Below, one piece after another: positions 3,902 to 17,673 of a DNA stretch of 17,673 nt (the first letter of the stretch is position 1; each line of letters begins with the position of its first letter). The notes under the pieces are model-generated. The model was not told where the DNA came from. It worked only from the letters and a program-made list of their open reading frames with translations, and did not search any database. Source of the DNA: an uncultured Eubacteriales bacterium (GTDB taxonomy: Bacteria > Bacillota > Clostridia > UMGS1883 > UMGS1540); the NCBI GenBank assembly GCA_900552775.1, contig USAP01000013.1:1-17673 (forward strand), in the 5' to 3' direction. The position numbers were made by a program, and so were the translations under genes.

Positions 3902-3954
3902 TGGAAATATAAAATATAAAGAGACGGGCGAAATGCTCAAAAGGAATGATACGA

Positions 3955-5130
3955 ATGATTTTTTCAAACAGAACGGCAGGTCTTCAGGGATCTGCCATAC
4001 GCGAAATGTTTAAGCTTCTCGGCGACCCCGAGATTATTTCGTTTTCCGGCGGCGCTCCGGCGCCATCGCTTTTCCCGGGTGAACAGCTTGCGGAGATTTC
4101 CGCAAAAATATTAAGAGACAATCCGTCCGTGGCGCTTCAGTATGGTGTGACTGAAGGCTATGCCCCCCTGCGCGAGCAGATAAAAGCACGCATGGAAAAA
4201 TTTGGAAACATAAAAGACGGTGACGGGGTTTTGGTAACCTCGGGCGGTCAGCAGGCGCTTGACCTCTGCTTTAAAACACTTATAAACGAGGGGGATAACG
4301 TTGCGGTTGAAAAGCCGAGCTTTATAGGCGGACTCAACTCTCTGCGTTCCTACGGCGCAAAGCTGCACGGCGTACCGGTGAAATCCTCAGGAATCGATAC
4401 GGACGCTTTGGAGGAGCTTTTAAAGCACATGAAAATCAAGCTTTTATACACCATAACAACGTTTCAGAATCCTTCGGGCATTACGATGGATCTTAAAACA
4501 AGAAAAAAGATTCTGGAGCTTGCGGAAAAATACGATTTTTATATTCTTGAAGACAATCCGTACGGCGAACTCCGCTTTAAAGGAGAGAATCTGCCCACTG
4601 TCAAATCTCTCGACACCGAAGGCAGAGTTATCTATGCAGGCTCATTTTCAAAGGTTCTTTCCGCCGGAATGCGTATAGGATGGGCAGTTGCGCGGAAAGA
4701 TATTTTTGAGAAGATGGTTATATGCAAACAGGTTTCGGATGTTCATACGCCAATGCTCACGCAGATGATGGCTGCAAAATTCTTTGAAGAATATTCGCTT
4801 GACGAGCATATTGAAAAATCCAGAAAATTTTACGGCAAAAAATGCGCGCTGATGCTTGACGCTATGGACAGATATTTCCCCGATTACTGTACATACACAA
4901 GACCCGAGGGCGGAATATTCCTCTGGTGCACGCTGCCGAAACGTTTCGATACGAAAAAGCTTCTTGAAGTTTCAATCAAAAACAAAGTTGCGTTTGTTCC
5001 GGGCTTTACGGCGGAAGTTGACATGGACGCACCCTCAAGCGAATTCAGGCTCAACTATTCTCTGCCTACGGACGAGCAGATAGAACGCGGAATAAAACTT
5101 CTTGCGGACGTTATAAAAAATTACAACTAA
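3955..5130 (+). CDS. PLP-dependent aminotransferase, class I/II (2-aminoadipate/aromatic aminotransferase-like)
   Basis: A 391-aa fold-type I aminotransferase. The PLP lysine is K233 in the GSFSKVLSAGMRIGW block. N172 (QNPSG) and D200 (LEDNPYG) contact the cofactor, and the late EFRLNYS segment holds the arginine expected to bind the substrate carboxylate. It lacks the GntR DNA-binding domain of MocR regulators. The family covers LysN/2-aminoadipate and aromatic or branched-chain aminotransferases, so the substrate is open. An ATG at 3946 overlaps the AAGGA ribosome binding site, so I chose the ATG at 3955 (nine-base spacing). tagO follows by 12 bp. This enzyme could supply the transamination step for aryl-pyruvates made by the T-box operon, but it is on the other strand under its own promoter. 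Confidence 0.88.
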   Translation: MIFSNRTAGLQGSAIREMFKLLGDPEIISFSGGAPAPSLFPGEQLAEISAKILRDNPSVALQYGVTEGYAPLREQIKARMEKFGNIKDGDGVLVTSGGQQALDLCFKTLINEGDNVAVEKPSFIGGLNSLRSYGAKLHGVPVKSSGIDTDALEELLKHMKIKLLYTITTFQNPSGITMDLKTRKKILELAEKYDFYILEDNPYGELRFKGENLPTVKSLDTEGRVIYAGSFSKVLSAGMRIGWAVARKDIFEKMVICKQVSDVHTPMLTQMMAAKFFEEYSLDEHIEKSRKFYGKKCALMLDAMDRYFPDYCTYTRPEGGIFLWCTLPKRFDTKKLLEVSIKNKVAFVPGFTAEVDMDAPSSEFRLNYSLPTDEQIERGIKLLADVIKNYN

Positions 5131-7481: not shown

Positions 7482-8309
7482 ATGGGTGAGGTTACAGTTA
7501 TAACATCCGGCAAAGGCGGCGTCGGAAAATCGACCGCAACGGCAAATCTCGGAGCGGCGCTTGCCGCGATGAACAAAAAGGTTATAATGCTTGATACGGA
7601 TGCCGGTCTGCGCAACCTTGACGTTGTTACGGGACTGCAAAATAATATAGTTTATAATATTTCCGACATATTTGCCGGTGCATGTACGCTGAGACAGGCA
7701 ACAGTAGAAGACAAAAGCCACAAAAATCTTTACATGCTCGCGGCATCGCAGACGGAGGACAAGACAAAGTCCTGCGAATCTGAGATGAAAAAGCTCTGCG
7801 AGGAGCTTTCCGCGCTCTACGATTTTGTGCTTATCGACTGTCCCGCAGGTATAGAACAGGGGTTTAAAAACGCCGTTTCGGGTGCGGACAGAGCCATAGT
7901 GGTTGTCACGCCCGACAAAGCCTCCGTGCGCGATGCGGACAGGGTTTTGGGATTGCTTGAAGAAAGAGACATGAAAAACCTCTATATATTAATAAACAAA
8001 ATGAATCCGAAACTTGTTGAAAAAGGCGCGCTTTTGGGCACGGACGAAATTATAGAAACGCTTGCGGCGGACCTTCTGGGAGTTATCCCGGATGACCCGA
8101 AAATTCTCATAAACGCAAACTGCGGCAAGCTTGTCACGGGTGATAAGCACGCGCGCTCTGCCGCGGCTTTCGAAAATGTTGCGCAGAGAATGCTCGGAAT
8201 AAGCGTTCCTCTTACGGATCTTGCCGATGACGGATCTTTCAGATATAAACTGCGTAAAAAGTTTTCAAAGAAAACACCGGTAAGTGCAGGGGTTAAACCT
8301 TTCGAATAG
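7482..8309 (+). CDS. minD: Septum-site determining ATPase MinD
   Basis: A deviant-Walker P-loop ATPase of the ParA/MinD family, which dimerises on the membrane and positions the division septum by localising MinC. The protein has 275 aa. The deviant Walker A GKGGVGKST is at 10-18 (signature lysine K11, catalytic K16). The MinD-specific DTDAGLRNLD follows at 38-47, and Walker B is VLIDCPAG. A basic amphipathic segment (FRYKLRKKFSKK) near the end fits the membrane-targeting sequence, but it is followed by about ten further residues. GGAGG lies just upstream of the ATG. It starts 56 bp after galK with no clear promoter between. Neither minC nor minE is adjacent, unlike the usual minC-minD-minE order in Clostridia. 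A terminator hairpin follows at 8350-8410. Confidence 0.93.
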   Translation: MGEVTVITSGKGGVGKSTATANLGAALAAMNKKVIMLDTDAGLRNLDVVTGLQNNIVYNISDIFAGACTLRQATVEDKSHKNLYMLAASQTEDKTKSCESEMKKLCEELSALYDFVLIDCPAGIEQGFKNAVSGADRAIVVVTPDKASVRDADRVLGLLEERDMKNLYILINKMNPKLVEKGALLGTDEIIETLAADLLGVIPDDPKILINANCGKLVTGDKHARSAAAFENVAQRMLGISVPLTDLADDGSFRYKLRKKFSKKTPVSAGVKPFE

Positions 8310-8349
8310 TTCGGGATGTTAAAAAACTCCGGAAAAGAAAATAAAAAAT

Positions 8350-8410
8350 ACAGGTGCGGCAGAAAGTCACAATCCGATAAGGAAGTATTGGTTTTGAAAG
8401 CCGCACCTGT
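8350..8410. terminator. Bidirectional terminator between minD and the T-box operon
   Basis: A perfect 11-bp inverted repeat, ACAGGTGCGGC (8350-8360) with GCCGCACCTGT (8400-8410), encloses a 39-base loop. The stem is followed by TTTTAT on the plus strand and by ATTTTTTATTTTC on the minus strand, so it can stop both minD and the convergent operon; the minus-strand T tract is the better one. The loop itself contains a small hairpin with the core CAATCCGATAAG, similar to the one in the 2282-2361 element. Confidence 0.75.
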
Positions 8411-8416
8411 TTTATA

Positions 8417-8848
8417 CTAAATTCTGTATACATCTTTTGCCGAAAGCAGCTCAACATCAGAATTTTTCAGAATGTCCTCCGCCTTTTCGGGATTATTCAC
8501 TTTAAGCACCATAATGGCTTTTCCCGAAATTTTTCCGACAAACGCATACATATAGCTTATTTCTATTCCCTCGTCCGTTATTTTATGAAGCGACTTTGTA
8601 AGCCCTCCGGGCGAATCATCTATCGTGACGGCAAAAACGTCCGTAAGCTTTACAAAAACACCCATTTCTTTAAGGCACGCCACGGCAAGCTCGGGATTGC
8701 TCACAATCATGCGCGCAACACCGTAATCCGCCGTATCGGCAATTGAAAGCGCGCTTATGTCTATCCCGTTTTCGGCAAGCGTATCTAAAATTGCCACAAG
8801 CCTTCCCGGTTTATTTTCAACAAAAATGGATAACTGTTTTATAAACAT
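8417..8848 (-). CDS. Tandem ACT-domain protein
   Basis: A 143-aa stand-alone protein made of two ACT domains (about 1-67 and 70-143). The first begins FIKQLSIFVENKPGRL, the classic ACT N-terminal strand and turn, with an ENGIDI motif typical of amino-acid-binding loops. ACT domains bind small ligands, usually amino acids, and regulate partner enzymes allosterically. It is the last gene of the T-box operon, 10 bp after paaK. A paaK-ACT pair is common in Clostridia and archaea with IorAB. That context suggests it senses an aromatic amino acid or arylacetate and controls the ligase or oxidoreductase, but this is inference. AGGAGG lies six bases before the ATG. Confidence 0.88.
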   Translation of the reverse strand: MFIKQLSIFVENKPGRLVAILDTLAENGIDISALSIADTADYGVARMIVSNPELAVACLKEMGVFVKLTDVFAVTIDDSPGGLTKSLHKITDEGIEISYMYAFVGKISGKAIMVLKVNNPEKAEDILKNSDVELLSAKDVYRI

Positions 8849-8858
8849 CTTTCCCCTC

Positions 8859-10169
8859 CTATTTCTTATAAACCTTGCGGTTGTCTATAACTCTTTTCGC
8901 CTTGCCCTCGCTGCGCTCTATGGATTTGGGGTTAACAAGATGAACTTTTGCGCCTATTCCGAGAACGCTGCGCAGCTCACCGGTGATTTTTCTTTCGATA
9001 AGCTCAATGGTTTTTACATCGTCTCCGAACATTTTCTCGCTCATTTCAACGTTTATGTCAAACGTATCGTTATTATTCACCCTGTCGACAATAATCTGAT
9101 AATTCGGGGTAACGTCTTCGTTGACGCGCAGAAGAACCTCTTCAATCTGCGACGGGAACACGTTAACACCGCGTATTATGAGCATATCATCGCTTCTGCC
9201 CTGGGGCTTTTTCATTCTTATATGCGTTCTGCCGCACTTACACGGCTCATAAATAAGCGTGCATATGTCGCGCGTTCTGTATCTTATAACGGGGAAACCT
9301 TCTTTTGTGAGCGTGGTGAAAACAAGCTCGCCCGTTGCGCCTTCGGGAAGAACCTCTCCGGTGTCGGGGTCGATTATCTCGGCTATGAACATATCCTCGC
9401 AGATATGCATTCCCTCCTGCTCGCTGCACTCGTACGCAACGCCGGGACCCATAATCTCGGAAAGACCGTAAATATCGTACGCTTTAAGCCCCAGTGAATC
9501 CTCTATGGCGTGACGCATATCCTCCGTCCACGGCTCCGCGCCGAAAATACCGGCTTTAAGCTTTATTTTATCGCGCAGACCTGCTTCGTTTATGGCTTCG
9601 CCGAGATACATGGCATATGATGGTGTGCAGCATAAAGCCGTTGAACCGAAATCCACCATTGTCTGTATCTGGTTATGCGTATTTCCCGATGAAATCGGAA
9701 TAACGGTGGCGCCTATGCGCTGTGCGCCCTCATGCGCGCCGAGACCTCCCGTGAAAAGTCCGTAGCCGTATGCAATCTGTATGAAATCGCGGTTGTCAAG
9801 TCCGATTGCGGTAAACATTCTCGCAACGCAGTCCGCCCATGCCTCAAGGTCCTTTCTCGTGTAGCCGACAACGATTTTCTTGCCCGTTGTGCCGCTTGAA
9901 GCATGCACGCGGACTATGTTTTCCATAGGCTCCGCAAAAAGGCCGTACGGATAATAGTCTCTCAAATCCTGTTTATAGGAAAAAGGCAGCAGCTTAAGAT
10001 CCTCCACGCCGCGGATATCCTCCGGCTTTAAACCCGCTTCGTCCATGCGCTTTCTGAAAAGCTCCACTCTTTCATACATTCTCTTAACCTGCCGGCAGAG
10101 TCTCTCTCCCTGAAGTTTCTTAAGTTCTTCGCGCGGCATTGTTTCAATTTCTTTCTGCCACATCTTCAT
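8859..10169 (-). CDS. paaK: Phenylacetate-CoA ligase family protein (arylacetate-CoA ligase)
   Basis: An AMP-forming ligase that converts an arylacetate, ATP and CoA to arylacetyl-CoA; cytoplasmic. The protein has 436 aa, the usual PaaK length. The P-loop ASSGTTGKK is at 90-98; YGLSEIMGPG and YRTRDIC follow. The hinge GRSDDMLIIRGVNVFP and the C-terminal EGKAKRVIDNR with the catalytic lysine are all present. The ATG at 10169 is preferred over an upstream GTG because AAAGGCGGTG lies six bases before it and the protein then begins like its homologues (MWQKEIETMPREELKKLQ). It sits between iorB (15 bp) and the ACT gene (10 bp). In other organisms PaaK next to IorAB activates phenylacetate, 4-hydroxyphenylacetate or indoleacetate. 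Tyrosine control here favours 4-hydroxyphenylacetate, but specificity cannot be read from sequence. Confidence 0.92.
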   Translation of the reverse strand: MKMWQKEIETMPREELKKLQGERLCRQVKRMYERVELFRKRMDEAGLKPEDIRGVEDLKLLPFSYKQDLRDYYPYGLFAEPMENIVRVHASSGTTGKKIVVGYTRKDLEAWADCVARMFTAIGLDNRDFIQIAYGYGLFTGGLGAHEGAQRIGATVIPISSGNTHNQIQTMVDFGSTALCCTPSYAMYLGEAINEAGLRDKIKLKAGIFGAEPWTEDMRHAIEDSLGLKAYDIYGLSEIMGPGVAYECSEQEGMHICEDMFIAEIIDPDTGEVLPEGATGELVFTTLTKEGFPVIRYRTRDICTLIYEPCKCGRTHIRMKKPQGRSDDMLIIRGVNVFPSQIEEVLLRVNEDVTPNYQIIVDRVNNNDTFDINVEMSEKMFGDDVKTIELIERKITGELRSVLGIGAKVHLVNPKSIERSEGKAKRVIDNRKVYKK

Positions 10170-10184
10170 TAACACCACCGCCTT

Positions 10185-10751
10185 TTATAAATTGTATCCA
10201 AGTTCAAATGCCTTAAGATTAACGTCCACAAACTTCGGCGGAACCGTTTCGCGTATGGTTTTAACCCATTTGTCGTACGAAATATCGGTATTCTTTGCCA
10301 TAACGCCTATCAAAACCACGTTAACGGCTTTGAAATTGCCTGCTTTTTCCGCAAGTTCAAGCGCGTTTACGGCTGTTACGTCCGCTTCCTTTTTGATTTT
10401 CTCCAAAATATTTTCGGGATATGACGCCGCGCCCGTTATAACAGGCATCGGGTCGATTTCCTGATTGTTAACAATTATCTTGCCGCCCTTTTTAAGATAC
10501 GGCAGCGCTCTGTATGCCTCGAGCATCTCGAAAGCCAGAATAATATCCGCCTCGCCGCGGTCAATTATCGGCGAATAAACCTTTTCTCCGTATTTTACAT
10601 ATGTTACAACGCTTCCGCCGCGCTGGCTCATTCCGTGAACCTCCGAGACCTTAACATCGAATCCTTCATTTATAACCGTGTTTCCGAGTATTCTGCTGGC
10701 AAGGAGCGTACCCTGACCGCCCACGCCGACAATCATAATATTCTTTGTCAT
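10185..10751 (-). CDS. iorB: Indolepyruvate:ferredoxin oxidoreductase, beta subunit
   Basis: The small (gamma-type) subunit of indolepyruvate ferredoxin oxidoreductase, which interconverts aryl-pyruvates plus CoA with arylacetyl-CoA plus CO2 using ferredoxin. It has 188 aa with the family's nucleotide-fold start IMIVGVGGQGTLLASR (glycines 9, 11, 12 and 14) and the SEVHGMSQRGGSV motif at 36-48, both hallmarks of IorB/PorC. Its ATG lies three bases after the iorA stop. Its ribosome binding site AAGGAGG is inside the end of iorA, so the two subunits should be made in equal amounts. It forms a heterodimeric unit with IorA in the cytoplasm. Confidence 0.95.
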   Translation of the reverse strand: MTKNIMIVGVGGQGTLLASRILGNTVINEGFDVKVSEVHGMSQRGGSVVTYVKYGEKVYSPIIDRGEADIILAFEMLEAYRALPYLKKGGKIIVNNQEIDPMPVITGAASYPENILEKIKKEADVTAVNALELAEKAGNFKAVNVVLIGVMAKNTDISYDKWVKTIRETVPPKFVDVNLKAFELGYNL

Positions 10752-10754
10752 ACG

Positions 10755-12491
10755 TCAGTCCTCCTTTTTCTCTATAGCGCCGAACGGGCAGACATTTATG
10801 CAGAGTCCGCAGCCGTTGCACTGCGTCATATCGATTTTAACCGTGCCGCCGTTTTCCGAAATTGCCGGGCAGCCGAGCTTCATGCAAAGCTTGCATTTTC
10901 TGCATTTGTCGTTTATCTCGCAGTGACCCGTATATTTAACGCGTTTTAAAAGCGCGCACGGACGCTGCGCTATTATAACCGACGGCTCGTCCTTTTCCGT
11001 TTCCTCTTTTACAACCTTCTCAAATTCCTTAAGGTTAAAAGGATCGCAGACTCTCACGCTGTCAACCCCAACGGCTTTGCAAAGCGTGAGAAGGTTTACA
11101 CCCTTTGTTTCCTCGCCGCGGATTGTGTATCCCGTTGTGGGATTTTCCTGGTGACCTGTCATGCCCGTGATGGAGTTATCCAAAATTATAACGGTGCTTG
11201 CGCCTTTGTTATAAACAATATCTATAAGTCCCGTTATGCCCGAGTGCATAAACGTGGAATCGCCGATAACGGAAACAAGTTTCCTGTTAAACTCTTTTCC
11301 TCTCGCCTTTGCCATGCCGTGAGCCGCCGAAACGGACGCGCCCATGCATATTGTCGTATCAACGCTCTGAAGCGGAGCCACCGCACCCAAAGTGTAGCAG
11401 CCAATATCGCCCGACACCGTAAGTCCCAGTTTTTTAAGAACAAAGAATGTTGCTCTGTGCGGACAGCCGGCGCACATAACGGGCGGTCTTACGGGGATAC
11501 TCTCGGAAAGCGCCGTGCTTTCGGGAGCGTCCTCGCCCAAAATTACTTTCTTTATCATATGCGGAGTGTATTCGCCCAGCAGCGTAAACTCATCTTTTCC
11601 GATAACGTCAATGCCAAGCGCTTTGCAGTGCTCCTCAATAAACGGGTCAAGTTCCTCCGTTACATAAACCTTTTTGCATTTTGCCGCAAAATCACGTATA
11701 AGCTTTGAGGGCAGCGGATAAACCATACCGAGTTTTAAATAGTTTACCTTATCTCCCAAAGCTTCTTTTGAATACATATATGAAATGCCGCTTGTTATAA
11801 CGCCTATATCGCTTTTGTTATCCTCAACCGTGTTAAACTCGCAGCCTTCCGAAAATGCCTCGAGTTTTTTCATTCTCTCCTCAACAACCACATGCTGTTT
11901 TATTGCGTTTCCCGGCATCATAACATATTTTGCTATGTTTTTTTCATAAGGCTTTAATTCATCGTCTTTGCGTTCCCCGAGCTCCACAAGGCTCTGCGAA
12001 TGGGAAACTCTTGTGGAAAGTCTTAAGAAAACGGGCGTATCAAACTGCTCTGAAAGTTCAAACGCACGTCTTGTGTATTCTTTGCACTCCTCCGAGTCAG
12101 AAGGCTCAAGCATCATGATTTTGGATGCCTTTGCATAGTGGCGCGAATCCTGCTCATTCTGCGAAGAATGCATTCCGGGATCGTCCGCAACGCAGAAAAG
12201 AAGTCCGCCGTTTACTCCCGTGTAGCTCACGGTGAAAACGGGGTCTGCCATAACGTTAAGTCCGACATGCTTCATGCAGCTCATGGCTCTTGCGCCGCCG
12301 ATGGACGCGCCTATTGCAGCCTCCGCCGCAACCTTTTCGTTTGGCGCCCATTCCGCATAAACATCATCGTATTGTACAATGCTTTCGGTGATTTCCGTTG
12401 AAGGCGTTCCGGGATAAGATGAAACAACCCTGACGCCTGCTTCATACGCGCCGCGCGCCACGGCGGCGTTTCCGAGCATCAATTTTTTCAT
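10755..12491 (-). CDS. iorA: Indolepyruvate:ferredoxin oxidoreductase, alpha subunit
   Basis: The large catalytic subunit of IorAB, 578 aa. The N-terminal pyrimidine domain is at about 1-170 (SSYPGTPSTEI, EKVAAEAAIGAS). The thiamine-diphosphate domain has the binding motif GDSTFMHSG at 410-418 and the partner LDNSITGMTGHQ. At the C-terminus is a two-cluster ferredoxin module: C530-C533-C536-C541 and C558-C561-C564-C568. The latter set is CNGCGLCINVCPFG. Known reaction: reversible oxidative decarboxylation of indolepyruvate, phenylpyruvate or 4-hydroxyphenylpyruvate to the arylacetyl-CoA, with reduced ferredoxin. The ATG at 12491 is chosen because AAGGAAG lies eight bases upstream and the protein then starts with the conserved MKKLMLGNAAVARG; a longer frame overlaps the ligase gene. 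Tyrosine T-box control suggests that the enzyme runs in the reductive carboxylation direction here. Confidence 0.96.
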   Translation of the reverse strand: MKKLMLGNAAVARGAYEAGVRVVSSYPGTPSTEITESIVQYDDVYAEWAPNEKVAAEAAIGASIGGARAMSCMKHVGLNVMADPVFTVSYTGVNGGLLFCVADDPGMHSSQNEQDSRHYAKASKIMMLEPSDSEECKEYTRRAFELSEQFDTPVFLRLSTRVSHSQSLVELGERKDDELKPYEKNIAKYVMMPGNAIKQHVVVEERMKKLEAFSEGCEFNTVEDNKSDIGVITSGISYMYSKEALGDKVNYLKLGMVYPLPSKLIRDFAAKCKKVYVTEELDPFIEEHCKALGIDVIGKDEFTLLGEYTPHMIKKVILGEDAPESTALSESIPVRPPVMCAGCPHRATFFVLKKLGLTVSGDIGCYTLGAVAPLQSVDTTICMGASVSAAHGMAKARGKEFNRKLVSVIGDSTFMHSGITGLIDIVYNKGASTVIILDNSITGMTGHQENPTTGYTIRGEETKGVNLLTLCKAVGVDSVRVCDPFNLKEFEKVVKEETEKDEPSVIIAQRPCALLKRVKYTGHCEINDKCRKCKLCMKLGCPAISENGGTVKIDMTQCNGCGLCINVCPFGAIEKKED

Positions 12492-12507
12492 AAGTTCTGC
12501 TTCCTTT

Positions 12508-14160
12508 CTAATTCGTCCTGTTTTCCGAAATCTCATTCTGTTTTGCAACAAGGCTTTCGCCGCAGTACATTTTTCTGAGCTTCGGCTTTTCTATTTTACC
12601 TGTGGGATTTCTCGGTACGTCCGCAAAAATAAATTTGTGCGGTCTTTTATATCTCGGCAAAGCGCGGCAGAAATCGGTTATTTCCTCTTCGCTCAGCGTT
12701 TCGCCCTCTTTAACTTCCACAACTGCCGCCGCTATTTCGCCGAGGCGTGTGTCCGGCAGGCCGATAACGGCAACGTCTTTAATCTTCGGATTGCTTCTTA
12801 AAAAGTCTTCAATCTGAACGGGATAAAGATTTTCACCGCCGGAAATGATAACGTCTTTTTTACGGTCGACAAGATAAATAAATCCGTCTTCATCGCGCAT
12901 TGCCATGTCACCCGTGTAAAGCCAGCCGTCTTTTAAAACCTCCGCCGTTGCTTTTTCGTCTTTATAGTAGCAAAGCATAACCCCGGGGCCTTTTACCGCA
13001 AGCTCTCCGACGTCTCCGTTTTTAACTTCGTTTCCGTCGCTGCCCACTATTTTAACTTCCCAGCCGAAACCCGCTTTGCCTATTGCGCCGACTTTGTGAA
13101 TATTCTCGACTCCCAGATGCACGCATCCGGGGCCTATGGATTCCGACAAACCGTAGTTTGTGTCATAAAGGTGATTCGGGAATTTTTCTTTCCAGCGTTT
13201 TATAAGGCTCGGCGGCACGGGCTGCGCGCCTATATGCATAAGTCTCCATTTGGAGAGGTCATAGTCTTCAAGTTTCACATCGCCGCGGTCTATGGCGTCA
13301 AGAATATCCTGCGCCCACGGCACAAGCAGCCACACTATGGAGCACTGCTCGTCAGACACGGCTTTTAAAATCCATTCGGGTTTTACGCCCTTTAAAAGCA
13401 CCGCTTTTCCGCCCACCAAAAACGATCCGAACCAGTGCATTTTTGCGCCCGTATGGTAAAGCGGCGGTATGCAGAGGAACACATCGTCCTTTGTCTGCTT
13501 ATGGTGCGCCTGCTCCGTCATTGCGGCATGCATTAAACTTCTGTGCGCATGCACAATGGCTTTCGGGAAGCCGGTCGTTCCGGACGAGAAATATATTGCC
13601 GCCTCATCGTCATCCGTAAGCTTTATGTCGGGTGCTTTTGAGGAACAGTATGTTACAAGCCTGTCATAGCTTTCCGCAAACGTCGGGCAGTCCTCCCCGA
13701 CGTAGAACCAGGCCTTAACGCGCGGAATGGTGTCGCAGATTTCCTCCACACGCCCCGTAAACTCGGGTCCGAACAAAATTGCGTCCGCATCCGCAAGGTT
13801 TAAGCAGTATTTTATCTCATCCGATGTATATCTGTAATTTAAAGGCACGGCAAGGGCGCCTGTTTTAAGTATTCCGAAATATATGGGCAGCCACTCCAGG
13901 CAGTTCATAAGAAGAATCGCCACTTTGTCACCTTTTTTAATGCCGCGCGTTAAAAGCAGATTTGCAAAGCGGTTTGCCTTTTTGTTAAACTCGCTCCACG
14001 TAATCTCGCTTCTGTAAGCCTCATTGGGGCTTGCTTCTATGAGAGAATACTCTCTCCATGTCATTCTTGTCTGGTTTTCAAGCTTTGGGTTTATCTCAAC
14101 CAAAGCGGTATCGTTAGGGTAAAAATCCGCATTTTTCTTAAGTATATCGGTAATAGGCAT
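12508..14160 (-). CDS. AMP-forming acyl/aryl-CoA ligase
   Basis: A 550-aa class I adenylate-forming enzyme, separate in family from PaaK. All core motifs are present: P-loop YFSSGTTGFPKAIVHAH (190-206), YGLSE (336-340), LYTGDMA (414-420), hinge DRKKDVIISGGENLYP (432-447) and catalytic K522 in PTGKIEKPK. It makes an acyl-adenylate, then a CoA thioester. The substrate is unknown; operon context suggests an arylacetate or related aromatic acid, but fatty-acid ligases look similar. An N-terminal stretch (about 28-52, NQTRMTWREYSLIEA...) partly repeats the following TWSEFNKKANR segment, a small extension relative to many homologues. The ATG at 14160 uses AAGGAGG nine bases upstream, within the symporter gene. 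The gap to the symporter stop is one base and to iorA 16 bases. Confidence 0.9.
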   Translation of the reverse strand: MPITDILKKNADFYPNDTALVEINPKLENQTRMTWREYSLIEASPNEAYRSEITWSEFNKKANRFANLLLTRGIKKGDKVAILLMNCLEWLPIYFGILKTGALAVPLNYRYTSDEIKYCLNLADADAILFGPEFTGRVEEICDTIPRVKAWFYVGEDCPTFAESYDRLVTYCSSKAPDIKLTDDDEAAIYFSSGTTGFPKAIVHAHRSLMHAAMTEQAHHKQTKDDVFLCIPPLYHTGAKMHWFGSFLVGGKAVLLKGVKPEWILKAVSDEQCSIVWLLVPWAQDILDAIDRGDVKLEDYDLSKWRLMHIGAQPVPPSLIKRWKEKFPNHLYDTNYGLSESIGPGCVHLGVENIHKVGAIGKAGFGWEVKIVGSDGNEVKNGDVGELAVKGPGVMLCYYKDEKATAEVLKDGWLYTGDMAMRDEDGFIYLVDRKKDVIISGGENLYPVQIEDFLRSNPKIKDVAVIGLPDTRLGEIAAAVVEVKEGETLSEEEITDFCRALPRYKRPHKFIFADVPRNPTGKIEKPKLRKMYCGESLVAKQNEISENRTN

Positions 14161-14161
14161 C

Positions 14162-15706
14162 TTACTTTTCCTCCTTGTCAAAAAGCAAATTGCATTTTTC
14201 GGGGCTCATCGGCTTTTCAAAGCTCGATACAAGAGTTGTTACAACAATTGAAACCGCCATTGCCAAAACTCCCATTTCGGGCGTATGCGACACCGCAGCG
14301 GGAAATCCGCCCGTCACCGTAAGCCAAACCGCGGGCACAAATATTCCCAAAAGTCCGGCAAACATGCCGCAGAAAGCAGATTTCTTTCCTGCCTTTTTCG
14401 AGAACAGTCCCAATATATAGGGTCCTATAAAAGCGCCCGAGACAACGCCCCACGAAAAGGACATTATGTTTACTATAATAGTGATATTAAGCGTTGCAAA
14501 AATATACGAAAGCGCCACAAACACAAGGCAGAGCACACGCGTCAAAACCATCTGTGACTTAGGCTTTAAGTCTTTTTTAATCTCCGGCACAAGGTCAACC
14601 GACACTGCCGAAGCGGAACTCAGCACAACCGAGGCAAGCGTGGACATTGAAGCCGAGAGCAGCAGTATAAGTATAACCGCAAGTATAATAACCGTGAAGC
14701 TGCTGCCGCCGAGAGCCGTTATAAGCATCTGCGGAATAACAAAATCCTTGCCGCCTTGGGGAAGTGTGTTTGAAAGCACAAGTCTTGAAAGCGAACCCGT
14801 GAAATATGCGCCGCAGCCTATGATAAGGCAGAAGAGCGTTGAAATCCATGTTGCGTGTTTTATGGAGTTTTTATCGTCTTTTATGGCATAGTATTTCGTA
14901 ACCATCTGCGGCAAACCCCATGTTCCGAAGCTTGTGAGCAATATATTGGTGCAGAGGAATTTAAATGATGAGCCTCCCCACACACTTGTAAGCTTTGCTC
15001 CGCTCACGCCGTCCTCCCCCATCGGGATTGCGGCAAGAGCCTCAAAAACATTGTCTGTACCGTTTGCACCGAGGTATTTTAAAACCGATACAATCATGAG
15101 CGCTATGCCGCCTATCATGATTATTCCCTGCACAAAGTCCGTGTAAACCGTGGCAAGGTATCCGCCCAAAACAAGGTACACAGCCGTTAAAGCGGCTATT
15201 ATAAACATGCACCAGTTAACGGATATATTCGGGAAAATAACGTTAAACATTGCGCCGAGTCCTTTGTATACGGCTGCCGAATAAGGCACAAGGAAAATAA
15301 AAATAATCAGCGCGGATATGATTTTCAAGGCTTTTGAATCATATCTGCCTTCAAAAAACTCCGGCATTGTTTTGGATTTTAACCTGTGCGTCATGCGGCG
15401 CGTCGGCTTTGCCAGCACGCACCACGCCAGAAGGCAGCCCAAAACCGCGTTTCCGACACCTATCCACATGCTTGACACACCTATGTCCCAGCCGTGTTTT
15501 CCGGCATAGCCTACGAAAATAACAGCCGAAAAATACGATGTGCCGTAAGCAAAAGCCGAGACAATCGGTCCCACATTTCTGCCGCCCAGCAAAAATCCGT
15601 CGATGGTTTTTGCCTTACGGTAGCTTATAACGCCGATGCTTATCATCAAAACCGCGAAAAGCAGCAGCGCGCCCGCCGTAATCCATTGAATTTGTGCTCC
15701 GTTCAT
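14162..15706 (-). CDS. Sodium:solute symporter (SSS family)
   Basis: An integral membrane Na+-coupled transporter of the SSS/PutP family, 514 aa with about 13 hydrophobic helices. Family features are the discontinuous first helix region (VSAFAYGTSYFSAVIF, 49-64), the KTMPEFFEGRY loop (112-122), VYTDFVQG (187-194), and SASMSTLASVV, where the Na2-site serines lie. It is the first gene after the T-box leader, so it should be expressed when tyrosyl-tRNA runs low. SSS members carry proline, pantothenate, acetate, phenylacetate and other carboxylates. With an arylacetate-activating operon behind it, an aromatic acid such as 4-hydroxyphenylacetate is the likely cargo, and tyrosine itself is an alternative. 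AAAAGGGG precedes the ATG by about eight bases. Confidence 0.9.
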   Translation of the reverse strand: MNGAQIQWITAGALLLFAVLMISIGVISYRKAKTIDGFLLGGRNVGPIVSAFAYGTSYFSAVIFVGYAGKHGWDIGVSSMWIGVGNAVLGCLLAWCVLAKPTRRMTHRLKSKTMPEFFEGRYDSKALKIISALIIFIFLVPYSAAVYKGLGAMFNVIFPNISVNWCMFIIAALTAVYLVLGGYLATVYTDFVQGIIMIGGIALMIVSVLKYLGANGTDNVFEALAAIPMGEDGVSGAKLTSVWGGSSFKFLCTNILLTSFGTWGLPQMVTKYYAIKDDKNSIKHATWISTLFCLIIGCGAYFTGSLSRLVLSNTLPQGGKDFVIPQMLITALGGSSFTVIILAVILILLLSASMSTLASVVLSSASAVSVDLVPEIKKDLKPKSQMVLTRVLCLVFVALSYIFATLNITIIVNIMSFSWGVVSGAFIGPYILGLFSKKAGKKSAFCGMFAGLLGIFVPAVWLTVTGGFPAAVSHTPEMGVLAMAVSIVVTTLVSSFEKPMSPEKCNLLFDKEEK

Positions 15707-15741
15707 AAATATGACCCCTTTTCTTTTGCAGAGGACATATT

Positions 15742-15775
15742 AAAAAAGTCCTCTGTATTGTATTATACAGAGGAC
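15742..15775 (-). terminator. T-box conditional terminator
   Basis: An 11-bp perfect stem, plus-strand GTCCTCTGTAT (15748-15758) with ATACAGAGGAC (15765-15775), encloses a six-base loop and is followed on the minus strand by six T residues (15742-15747). Its 5' arm is shared with the antiterminator, so the two structures exclude each other. Confidence 0.92.
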
Positions 15776-16034
15776 GAATTTTTTAAATCCGTGGTACCAC
15801 CTCAGGTTCGCCGCCCAACTCACGAAGGGCAGCCTCATCAGGTACAGCGCAAGACTCAATACCTTAGTGCTGTGACGGGCACACCCGTTGCAGCCTACTC
15901 GAAACCTCTTTCGGTGCACAGCTCTCGGAATGTATTCGGATATATGCTTTCCGTTGTCTCGCACCGCCCGACAACTCTCTCAAGGCTCCGCATATTCTTA
16001 CTTGTTTCCGGTCATCACCTTTAAATATTAACTT
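15742..16034 (-). promoter_or_regulatory. T-box riboswitch, tyrosine (UAC) specifier
   Basis: Read on the minus strand, the leader begins AAGGTGATGACC (about 16022) and has T-box stem I, with AGTAA on the 5' side of the specifier loop, AGAGAG and a GGTG distal loop. GAA-TAC-A (15931-15937) is on the 3' side, so the specifier is UAC (15932-15934), a tyrosine codon. Stem III is GCTGCCC/GGGCGGC (15810-15833). The T-box sequence TGAGGTGGTACCACGG is at 15789-15804. Its UGGU bulge would pair with ACCA, matching the A73 discriminator of tRNA-Tyr. GAGG and ACG can pair with CCTC and CGT in the 5' arm of the terminator (15770-15776) as antiterminator. Uncharged tRNA-Tyr should therefore allow read-through into the symporter operon. 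Confidence 0.93.
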
Positions 16035-16040
16035 GAAATA

Positions 16041-16069
16041 ATTATATCACTTCATTATTTATTTGTCAA
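16041..16069 (-). promoter_or_regulatory. Full-consensus promoter of the T-box operon
   Basis: A perfect -35 TTGACA (16064-16069), 17-bp spacer, and perfect -10 TATAAT (16041-16046) with an extended TGA. The start is predicted near 16034, giving a leader of about 328 bases to the symporter ATG. A maximally strong promoter fits control by transcription termination rather than initiation. The -35 lies only 10 bases after the stop of the upstream NSS transporter gene. Confidence 0.92.
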
Positions 16070-16079
16070 CAGTATTTTT

Positions 16080-17435
16080 TTAAATTTTAAAAATACCGAA
16101 CACATCCAGCACGGACGATACCAAAATAAGCACAATACATATCGGCGCCAGATATTTTATCATAACCGTGAAAACCTTTTCGCGCCCAAAAGTTCCGTCC
16201 CGGCTAATCTCATCGGCAAGCGTTTTCGGCTTTATAACATATCCCACAAATATGCATGTGAGGAATGCGACAATCGGCATTAAAACGCTGTTGCTTATAA
16301 AATCGAAAAAGTCGAGGAACGAAAGACCTATTATCTTCACGCCGCCCCACAGCCCGAACCCGAGCGAGGACGGAATACCCAGGAAAAGGCATATGGCAAT
16401 TGTAAGTATACAAGCCGTGCTTCTTTTAACCTTGAATTTATCGCTGAAAATAGAAACAACCGTTTCCATGAGCGAAATTGAAGATGTGAGCGCCGCAAAC
16501 AAAACGAGTATGAAAAACGCCGCGCCGATAACCGTGCCGCCTTTCATGCTTTCAAAAACCTGCGGCAGCGTTACAAACATAAGCCCGGGGCCTTTGCCCA
16601 AAGCCGCCTCGTCTCCGCCCGAGAAAACAAACACCGCCGGAATAATCATAAGACCTGCCAAAAATGCAATTCCGGTGTCAAAAATTTCTATTTGTTTTAC
16701 TGACGCTTCAAGATTTACATCCTTTTTCATATATGAGCCGTATGTTATCATAATGCCCATCGCAAGCGACATGGAGTAGAAAAGCTGACCCATTGCCGCA
16801 AGCACCGTTTTTGCCGAAAATTTTGAAAAATCGGGCGTGATGTAATAGAGAACGCCGTTAACAGCACCCGGCAGCGTAATCGCATAAACGGCAATTATAA
16901 CTGAAAGCACTACGAGAATAGGCATCATAATGCTGCTTACCTTCTCAACGCCTTTTTCAACGCCCCTCAACACAACAAAAGACGTGATGCCGAGGAATAC
17001 CAGAAACCAAATGAGCGGCTCTGCCGGCTTTGATATAAAGCTTTCAAAAAATCCGCTTTCCGCCGCAAGCCTTGCCTGCCCCGTGCAGAATGCCGCAAGG
17101 TATTTCGTAACCCAACCGCCTATAACCGAGTAATAAGGCAAAATTATCATGGGAACAAGCGCCGTGAGAGTTCCTATAAAAGAGAACTTTTTGGAAAGCG
17201 CGCCGTATGCGCCTATGGCGCTTAGACCCGTTTTTCTGCCGAGCGCAATCTCCGCCGACATAAACGCAAATCCGAATGTAAGCGCAAGTACGATATACAC
17301 GAGCAGAAATATTCCGCCGCCGTATTTTGCCGCAAGATACGGGAATCTCCAAATATTTCCCAAACCCACGGCTGAACCTGCCGCCGCAAGCACAAAACCG
17401 ATTTTTCCGCTGAAACTGCTTCTTTCTTTTTCCAT
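16080..17435 (-). CDS. Sodium-dependent amino-acid transporter, NSS (LeuT/TnaT) family
   Basis: A neurotransmitter:sodium symporter family protein, 451 aa, with about 11 membrane helices as in bacterial LeuT, TnaT and Tyt1. The Na+ and substrate-site motif GLGNIWRFPY in helix 1 is at 24-33. The helix-8 region ALTSSISLMETV matches the family's second ion site, and the helix-2 MSAEIALGRK is also typical. Bacterial members import hydrophobic or aromatic amino acids, including tyrosine and tryptophan. Its position just upstream of a tyrosine T-box operon suggests an aromatic amino acid, but this is inference. The ATG at 17435 has GGAGG five bases upstream. No clear promoter or T-box was seen in 17436-17650, and no terminator follows its stop. 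Confidence 0.93.
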   Translation of the reverse strand: MEKERSSFSGKIGFVLAAAGSAVGLGNIWRFPYLAAKYGGGIFLLVYIVLALTFGFAFMSAEIALGRKTGLSAIGAYGALSKKFSFIGTLTALVPMIILPYYSVIGGWVTKYLAAFCTGQARLAAESGFFESFISKPAEPLIWFLVFLGITSFVVLRGVEKGVEKVSSIMMPILVVLSVIIAVYAITLPGAVNGVLYYITPDFSKFSAKTVLAAMGQLFYSMSLAMGIMITYGSYMKKDVNLEASVKQIEIFDTGIAFLAGLMIIPAVFVFSGGDEAALGKGPGLMFVTLPQVFESMKGGTVIGAAFFILVLFAALTSSISLMETVVSIFSDKFKVKRSTACILTIAICLFLGIPSSLGFGLWGGVKIIGLSFLDFFDFISNSVLMPIVAFLTCIFVGYVIKPKTLADEISRDGTFGREKVFTVMIKYLAPICIVLILVSSVLDVFGIFKI

Positions 17436-17650: not shown

Positions 17651-17673
17651 AGATCGGAAGAGCGTCGTGTAGG
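17651..17673 (+). other. Illumina adapter read-through at contig end
   Basis: The last 23 bases begin AGATCGGAAGAGCGTCGTGT and match the reverse complement of the Illumina TruSeq universal (P5) adapter. This is not genomic sequence. The biological contig ends at or before 17650. Confidence 0.97.

Follow-up and report, generated by a model that had tools for sequence, protein, structure and literature searches.

T-box leader RNAs of Firmicutes, which raise expression when the cognate tRNA is uncharged (i.e., during amino-acid starvation), are known on genes for amino-acid biosynthesis, aminoacyl-tRNA synthetases and transporters. Reductive assimilation of arylacetates is also known physiology: rumen synthesis of phenylalanine from phenylacetate, of isoleucine from 2-methylbutyrate and of valine from isobutyrate is old knowledge (PMC7356843), and methanogens carboxylate arylacetates reductively to arylpyruvates with an indolepyruvate:ferredoxin oxidoreductase (IOR) and a phenylacetyl-CoA ligase (PMC6737245, PMC4162585). 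Here, we analyzed a window (the whole stretch of DNA, 17,673 nt) from an uncultured Eubacteriales bacterium, in which a minus-strand operon encoding a symporter, two ligases, IorAB and an ACT-domain protein stands behind a T-box leader with the tyrosine codon UAC. We consider it likely that this tyrosine-specific T-box controls an operon for salvage of arylacetate to tyrosine, parallel to the shikimate pathway; from the sequence, we infer the substrate, the in vivo direction of the reaction, the transport step and the role of the ACT protein.

Results

The T-box leader (RF00230) at 15767..16024 on the (−) strand scored 107.3 bits against a gathering threshold of 93, covering the complete Rfam model (1 to 219), and its specifier loop reads GAA-UAC-A, with the tyrosine codon at 15932..15934 (−). 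The T-box bulge UGGU (15796..15799, −) could pair with the ACCA end of a tRNA with discriminator A; this is the discriminator of tRNA-Tyr, and the bulge is as expected for such a tRNA. An intrinsic terminator at 15748..15775 (−), with a hairpin of 11 pairs and a T run, folds at −17.7 kcal/mol (z = −8.61 versus shuffles) and is read as competing with the antiterminator. Our identification of the leader rests on the match to the Rfam model and on conservation, a T-box leader being found on 22 related operons. Folded alone with ViennaRNA, stem I exceeded most shuffles in stability (z = −2.51), although the canonical T-box stem was not obtained; the antiterminator, aligned by the Rfam model, folded alone no better than shuffles (z = −0.30); and an RNAalifold consensus of 25 leaders showed stem I in part only. 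Upstream, a sigma-70 promoter at 16041..16069 (−) reads TTGACA-17-TATAAT, a 12/12 match to the consensus, with a TG before the −10 element (extended −10). The first-pass annotation of this DNA had placed the operon behind a full-consensus promoter and a T-box with a UAC specifier, and both features are borne out.

Pfam and NCBIfam profiles identified six genes in this operon, all on the (−) strand. They encode, in order, an SSF-domain, SSS-family Na+ symporter (14162..15706), the proposed arylacetate importer; an AMP-forming acyl/aryl-CoA ligase of the AMP-binding family (12508..14160, ATG start at 14160); the IOR alpha subunit IorA (10755..12491, ATG at 12491), which scored 746.7 bits against the IOR_alpha TIGR03336 cut-off of 650.9; the beta subunit IorB (10185..10751), which lies above the cut-off of NF005325 (298.5 versus 230) and narrowly below that of TIGR03334 (203.8 versus 205.8); a PaaK-like phenylacetate-CoA ligase (8859..10178); and an ACT domain pair (ACT_8; 8417..8848), the proposed feedback sensor. 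We call the fifth protein PaaK-like rather than PaaK because it misses the TIGR02155 equivalog cut-off (540.8 versus 646.3 bits); its best solved relative is the phenylacetate-CoA ligase 2y27 (E = 5.9e-132). Both ligases are AMP-forming, and no kinase, phosphotransacylase or ADP-forming ligase is found among the six genes. The ORF coordinates give gaps of 1, 16, 3, 6 and 10 bp, in line with the 1 to 16 bp first described. A strong terminator between the symporter and iorA had been named as an observation that would speak against the proposal; scanning 8200 to 16200 on both strands returned 12 terminator-like matches versus 10.8 expected by shuffling, none of them convincing between these two genes, and only the leader terminator stands out.

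The annotation had also suggested tabulating the specifiers of T-boxes on operons of this type. In the first set, obtained by an IorA scan of a collection of 84,980 genomes, we took the best 80 of 590 loci and mapped gene order by tblastn; a T-box precedes (SSS-)ligase-iorAB in 8 of the 80, always with UAC. The second set came from 51 genomes in the order of one relative (G002), with 40 iorA matches over the cut-off; 39 of these regions were taken, the remaining one being L002 itself, and 10 carried a T-box, all over the gathering threshold and all UAC. Across the class, 196 genomes were sampled and iorA exceeded the cut-off in 136; among 60 upstream regions, chosen non-randomly from the matches listed, four held a UAC T-box and one a UGG T-box. 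Altogether, the window and 22 relatives give 23 tyrosine T-box operons in 23 different genomes, with UAC in 23/23 and every leader over the gathering threshold. These leaders, together with two from lone symporters (see below), share pairwise identities of 0.49 to 0.97 (mean, 0.64), and one (L107) has C rather than A after UAC. The Rfam model was run on 27 of the first 80 loci, the other 53 being screened by motif regex only; the same holds for 27 of 39 regions from the order, 47 of 60 from the class, 18 of 19 of a second iorA type and 39 of 40 from the families. T-boxes may be hidden in such loci because a stricter regex missed two leaders (L007 and L015) that Rfam found. Motif matches at L108, L150 and L177 were dropped for want of an Rfam T-box match, and one at L154 because it lies inside a symporter gene on the opposite strand. 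Also not counted were a T-box that passes gathering but lies on the opposite strand (L012) and a T-box-like core under gathering that lies on the same strand beyond the ACT gene, not upstream of iorA (L092).

The architecture of these operons varies around a common core. In 7 of the 23, the ligase directly follows the T-box and no symporter lies in between; the symporter is therefore not the sole target of the T-box. Matches to paaK and ACT follow iorB in 15 of the 19 operons with downstream sequence, and two (L010 and L022) end at a contig end. A PaaK-like gene occupies the position of the window's AMP-forming ligase in seven loci (L006, L067, L110 and L113 to L116); since one replaces the other in position, this suggests that the two ligases share one kind of acid as substrate. 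Ruminant-gut assemblies are the source of many of the related loci. In a tree of 122 IorA sequences, 19 proteins from tyrosine T-box operons (18 full length; that of L022 has 490 residues) fell within one clade of 33 (support, 0.889), which became a clade of 34 with support of 0.995 once two sequences were added. A single origin followed by losses is likely on this tree, and the 23 operons are therefore not independent cases.

Next, we asked whether UAC is special to the ior operon. Six genomes hold 30 T-boxes elsewhere, 25 of which served as a control (the omitted five are one from G010 and four from G001), with specifier codons read by eye from the loop context. UAC occurred in only two, both before a lone SSS symporter (L125 in G003 and L138 in G010); the ior operons of these same two genomes (L004 and L016) have no symporter. 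The remaining 23 carried Phe, Trp, Ile, Val, Leu, Asn or Thr specifiers. Ten targets were sent to an NCBIfam scan, and the specifier matched the target gene in all seven that were named (AsnS, ValS twice, IleS, ThrS, TrpE and TrpB2). The other three did not pass the E-value limit; we take two of them to be PheS and one to be LeuA-like.

T-boxes with other specifiers precede related modules. UGG (Trp) T-boxes were found in three cases, all in a separate IorA clade of eight (support, 1.0), and were drawn from the 60 class regions, the 19 second-type iorA regions and 40 regions taken from two families, one of these regions being a repeat from the second-type set. One case came from each sampled set, i.e., they are rare in the sample. 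The first (L200/L173; L200:4329-8290) reads T-box-iorA-iorB-paaK at 107.7 bits; the second (L215/L260; L260:77-5463) reads T-box-trpB2-iorA-iorB-paaK at 80.6 bits, below gathering (E = 1.9e-16); and the third (L234) is a T-box-iorA on a cut contig at 71.6 bits, also below gathering (E = 4e-14). IorA of L200 and L260 shares 42% and 40% identity, respectively, with that of the window and 61% with each other, while the 67 residues of L234 IorA are 58% identical to the window's and 79 to 82% identical to those of L200 and L260. In three genomes (G003, G005 and G010), Ile (AUC) and Val (GUA) T-boxes precede two proteins of ~760 residues (L139:430-5380, L126 and L133, with L261 to L263), and genes for VOR and a branched-chain aminotransferase (BCAT) lie just downstream; the two such proteins scanned (the L139 pair of G010) are HTH-cupin-AMP-ligase fusions. 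This linkage is not general, as the Ile-type T-box gene and VOR lie on different contigs in G001 and no VOR match was obtained in G002. A possible phenylalanine case (L064:7272-8001), a T-box with GAAAUUUCA, probably UUC, was not counted: an intervening gene, presumably YerC/TrpR-like and likely to have a promoter of its own, separates it from iorA.

The proposed route ends in a transamination, and a class I/II aminotransferase is encoded in the window at 3946..5130 on the (+) strand. In two relatives (L082 and L083) the T-box operon runs on from ACT into an aminotransferase gene, and in two more (L013 and L018) such a gene follows ACT where no T-box was found. The linked enzyme is the best match to the window protein in all four genomes (53 to 55%; the second match, where listed, 25%). 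Because its orthologs follow ACT in these relatives, the window probably holds the operon's transaminase, a proposed arylpyruvate transaminase, encoded on the opposite strand at a distance of 3.3 kb.

The first-pass annotation further spoke of bypassing the shikimate pathway, which stands for a parallel route and falls for a replacement. Among 20 relative genomes, prephenate dehydrogenase (tyrA) is present in 19, chorismate synthase (aroC) in 18 and prephenate dehydratase (pheA) in all 20; the eight with a tyrosine T-box operon have them in seven, eight and eight cases, respectively. Since these genes are kept, salvage would be additional to the shikimate pathway, and we reject a shikimate deficiency for the relatives. 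No T-box was found on the contig carrying tyrA in five genomes with the T-box operon (G002, G003, G005, G006 and G010). In G001, with no T-box found at its ior operon, a Phe (UUC) T-box (L120:439-687) precedes pheA-tyrA.

An NSS-family Na+ transporter (16080-17435) lies directly upstream of the operon promoter on the same strand. It was rejected as an operon partner, with no match listed in the best 80 of the 590 related loci. The (+) strand end of the window (17651-17673) resembles what we take to be an Illumina TruSeq adapter; for this reason, the window probably terminates at an untrimmed contig end.

Discussion

We propose that uncharged tRNA-Tyr would turn the operon on through the T-box, whereupon the SSS symporter would import an arylacetate, of which 4-hydroxyphenylacetate released by other gut microbes is the most likely. 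This acid would be converted to its CoA thioester by an AMP-forming ligase; IorAB, using reduced ferredoxin and CO2, would carboxylate the thioester to 4-hydroxyphenylpyruvate, from which an aminotransferase would yield tyrosine; the ACT pair may add feedback. Such a reductive salvage was first suggested by the annotation, and several of its elements now have support: the tyrosine specifier in 23/23 leaders, control of the starvation type, a transaminase within the T-box operons of two relatives, AMP-forming ligases without a kinase and the sister T-boxes for Trp, Ile and Val. Its substrate, the direction of IorAB and import are still parts that we infer. An AMP-forming ligase beside IOR points to biosynthesis, as has been argued for the IOR of Bacteroides (PMC13285125).

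Several observations weigh against this proposal. IORs act on several arylpyruvates (PMC13285125), and sequence does not fix substrate specificity; nor does the proposal account for the presence of two ligases when there is a single activation step. In 7 of 15 genomes, six of these being among the T-box genomes found first, the aminotransferase has no strong ortholog, and L087 and L091 have no paaK or ACT match downstream of iorB. Within the IorA clade, 14 of the 33 proteins have no detected T-box, some of them on cut contigs. Lastly, the symporter of the window falls in an SSS clade other than that of the other tyrosine T-box symporters compared (41 to 45% identity); it is nearest (57 to 64%) to symporters accompanying paaK-iorAB-paaK-ACT operons and is perhaps a swapped part.

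The same genes could be arranged into other schemes. IORs accept phenyl-, hydroxyphenyl- and indolepyruvate (PMC13285125), and the two different ligases of the operon might serve a broad salvage that draws on phenylacetate and indoleacetate to the same extent as on 4-hydroxyphenylacetate, with tyrosine only as the signal. We think this unlikely, as UAC in every leader found versus UGG on a separate IorA clade suggests specialization by product. A reversal of the whole route, with IorAB oxidizing 4-hydroxyphenylpyruvate to the CoA ester and the ligases running backward to conserve energy, would fit the oxidative role of IOR in peptide fermenters; iorAB-butK of C. difficile appears in a table of SigL-dependent promoters (PMC7438776), and the oxidative route has been characterized in C. 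scatologenes, there with other enzymes (PMC13285125). Fermentation of this kind is improbable for the window operon, whose T-box would raise expression on tyrosine starvation, whose six genes include AMP-forming ligases only, with no kinase, phosphotransacylase or ADP-forming ligase, and whose sister modules occur alongside TrpB2 or BCAT behind T-boxes for the matching amino acid. Tyrosine transporters under T-box control are known from other families (NHAC and NSS), and the genes named behind distant T-boxes include a sodium symporter four times (PMC2494555); the leader might on this model serve the symporter as a tyrosine importer, with iorAB downstream by accident. The 7 of 23 operons in which no symporter separates T-box and ligase make this very unlikely.

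Returning to reductive salvage, we regard the Trp, Ile and Val modules as its strongest support, by analogy: T-boxes would so mark some modules of ligase, 2-oxoacid:ferredoxin oxidoreductase and transaminase as biosynthetic. We lean toward the broader view that, in gut Clostridia, T-boxes with matching codons govern a general CO2-fixing salvage of carbon skeletons, in which ligase-IorAB has a Tyr T-box, a second IorAB clade with PaaK (and TrpB2) has a Trp T-box, and the HTH-cupin-ligase fusions beside VOR and BCAT have Ile and Val T-boxes, and that the specifier reveals both direction and product for enzymes that annotations usually assign to amino-acid degradation. When IorAB, VOR or PaaK genes turn up in a gut metagenome, the usual interpretation is that they produce phenylacetate, precursors of p-cresol and branched acids. 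Should T-box codons indeed mark a subset of them as consumers with amino acids as the product, the predicted aromatic metabolites relevant to the host would change sign in the organisms concerned, and direction could be read cheaply from sequence by way of the specifier codon. The earlier rumen studies of amino acids made from scavenged acids would gain genes, and one microbe's amino-acid waste acid would be another's amino-acid precursor, a form of cross-feeding.

We found no report of T-box control of this operon type in the literature searched, a search that the two main T-box surveys lie outside; by term count, the main text of Wels 2008 (PMC2494555) lacks indolepyruvate, phenylacetate, acyl-CoA and oxidoreductase. 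The oxidative Stickland cluster HpdDEFG-HpdJ-HpdK of C. scatologenes employs the same arylpyruvate:ferredoxin oxidoreductase chemistry, each step of which is thermodynamically reversible; unlike the window operon, it pairs a VOR-like oxidoreductase with a kinase and a phosphotransacylase and is induced during growth on tyrosine (PMC13285125). The chemistry we propose is the same as in rumen synthesis of Phe, Ile and Val from acids; that work, as cited in PMC7356843, is physiological, whereas in the present loci each product is tied to genes with a cognate T-box, with no Phe case counted. Compared with the methanogen route, with which it would share reductive carboxylation by IOR and a ligase, the window system lies in Clostridia and adds an amino-acid-specific T-box, an SSS symporter and a second ligase. 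Its leader has the anatomy, specifier logic and predicted starvation induction of other Firmicutes T-boxes; unlike those on biosynthesis, aminoacyl-tRNA synthetase and transporter genes, it would target a reductive arylacetate module.

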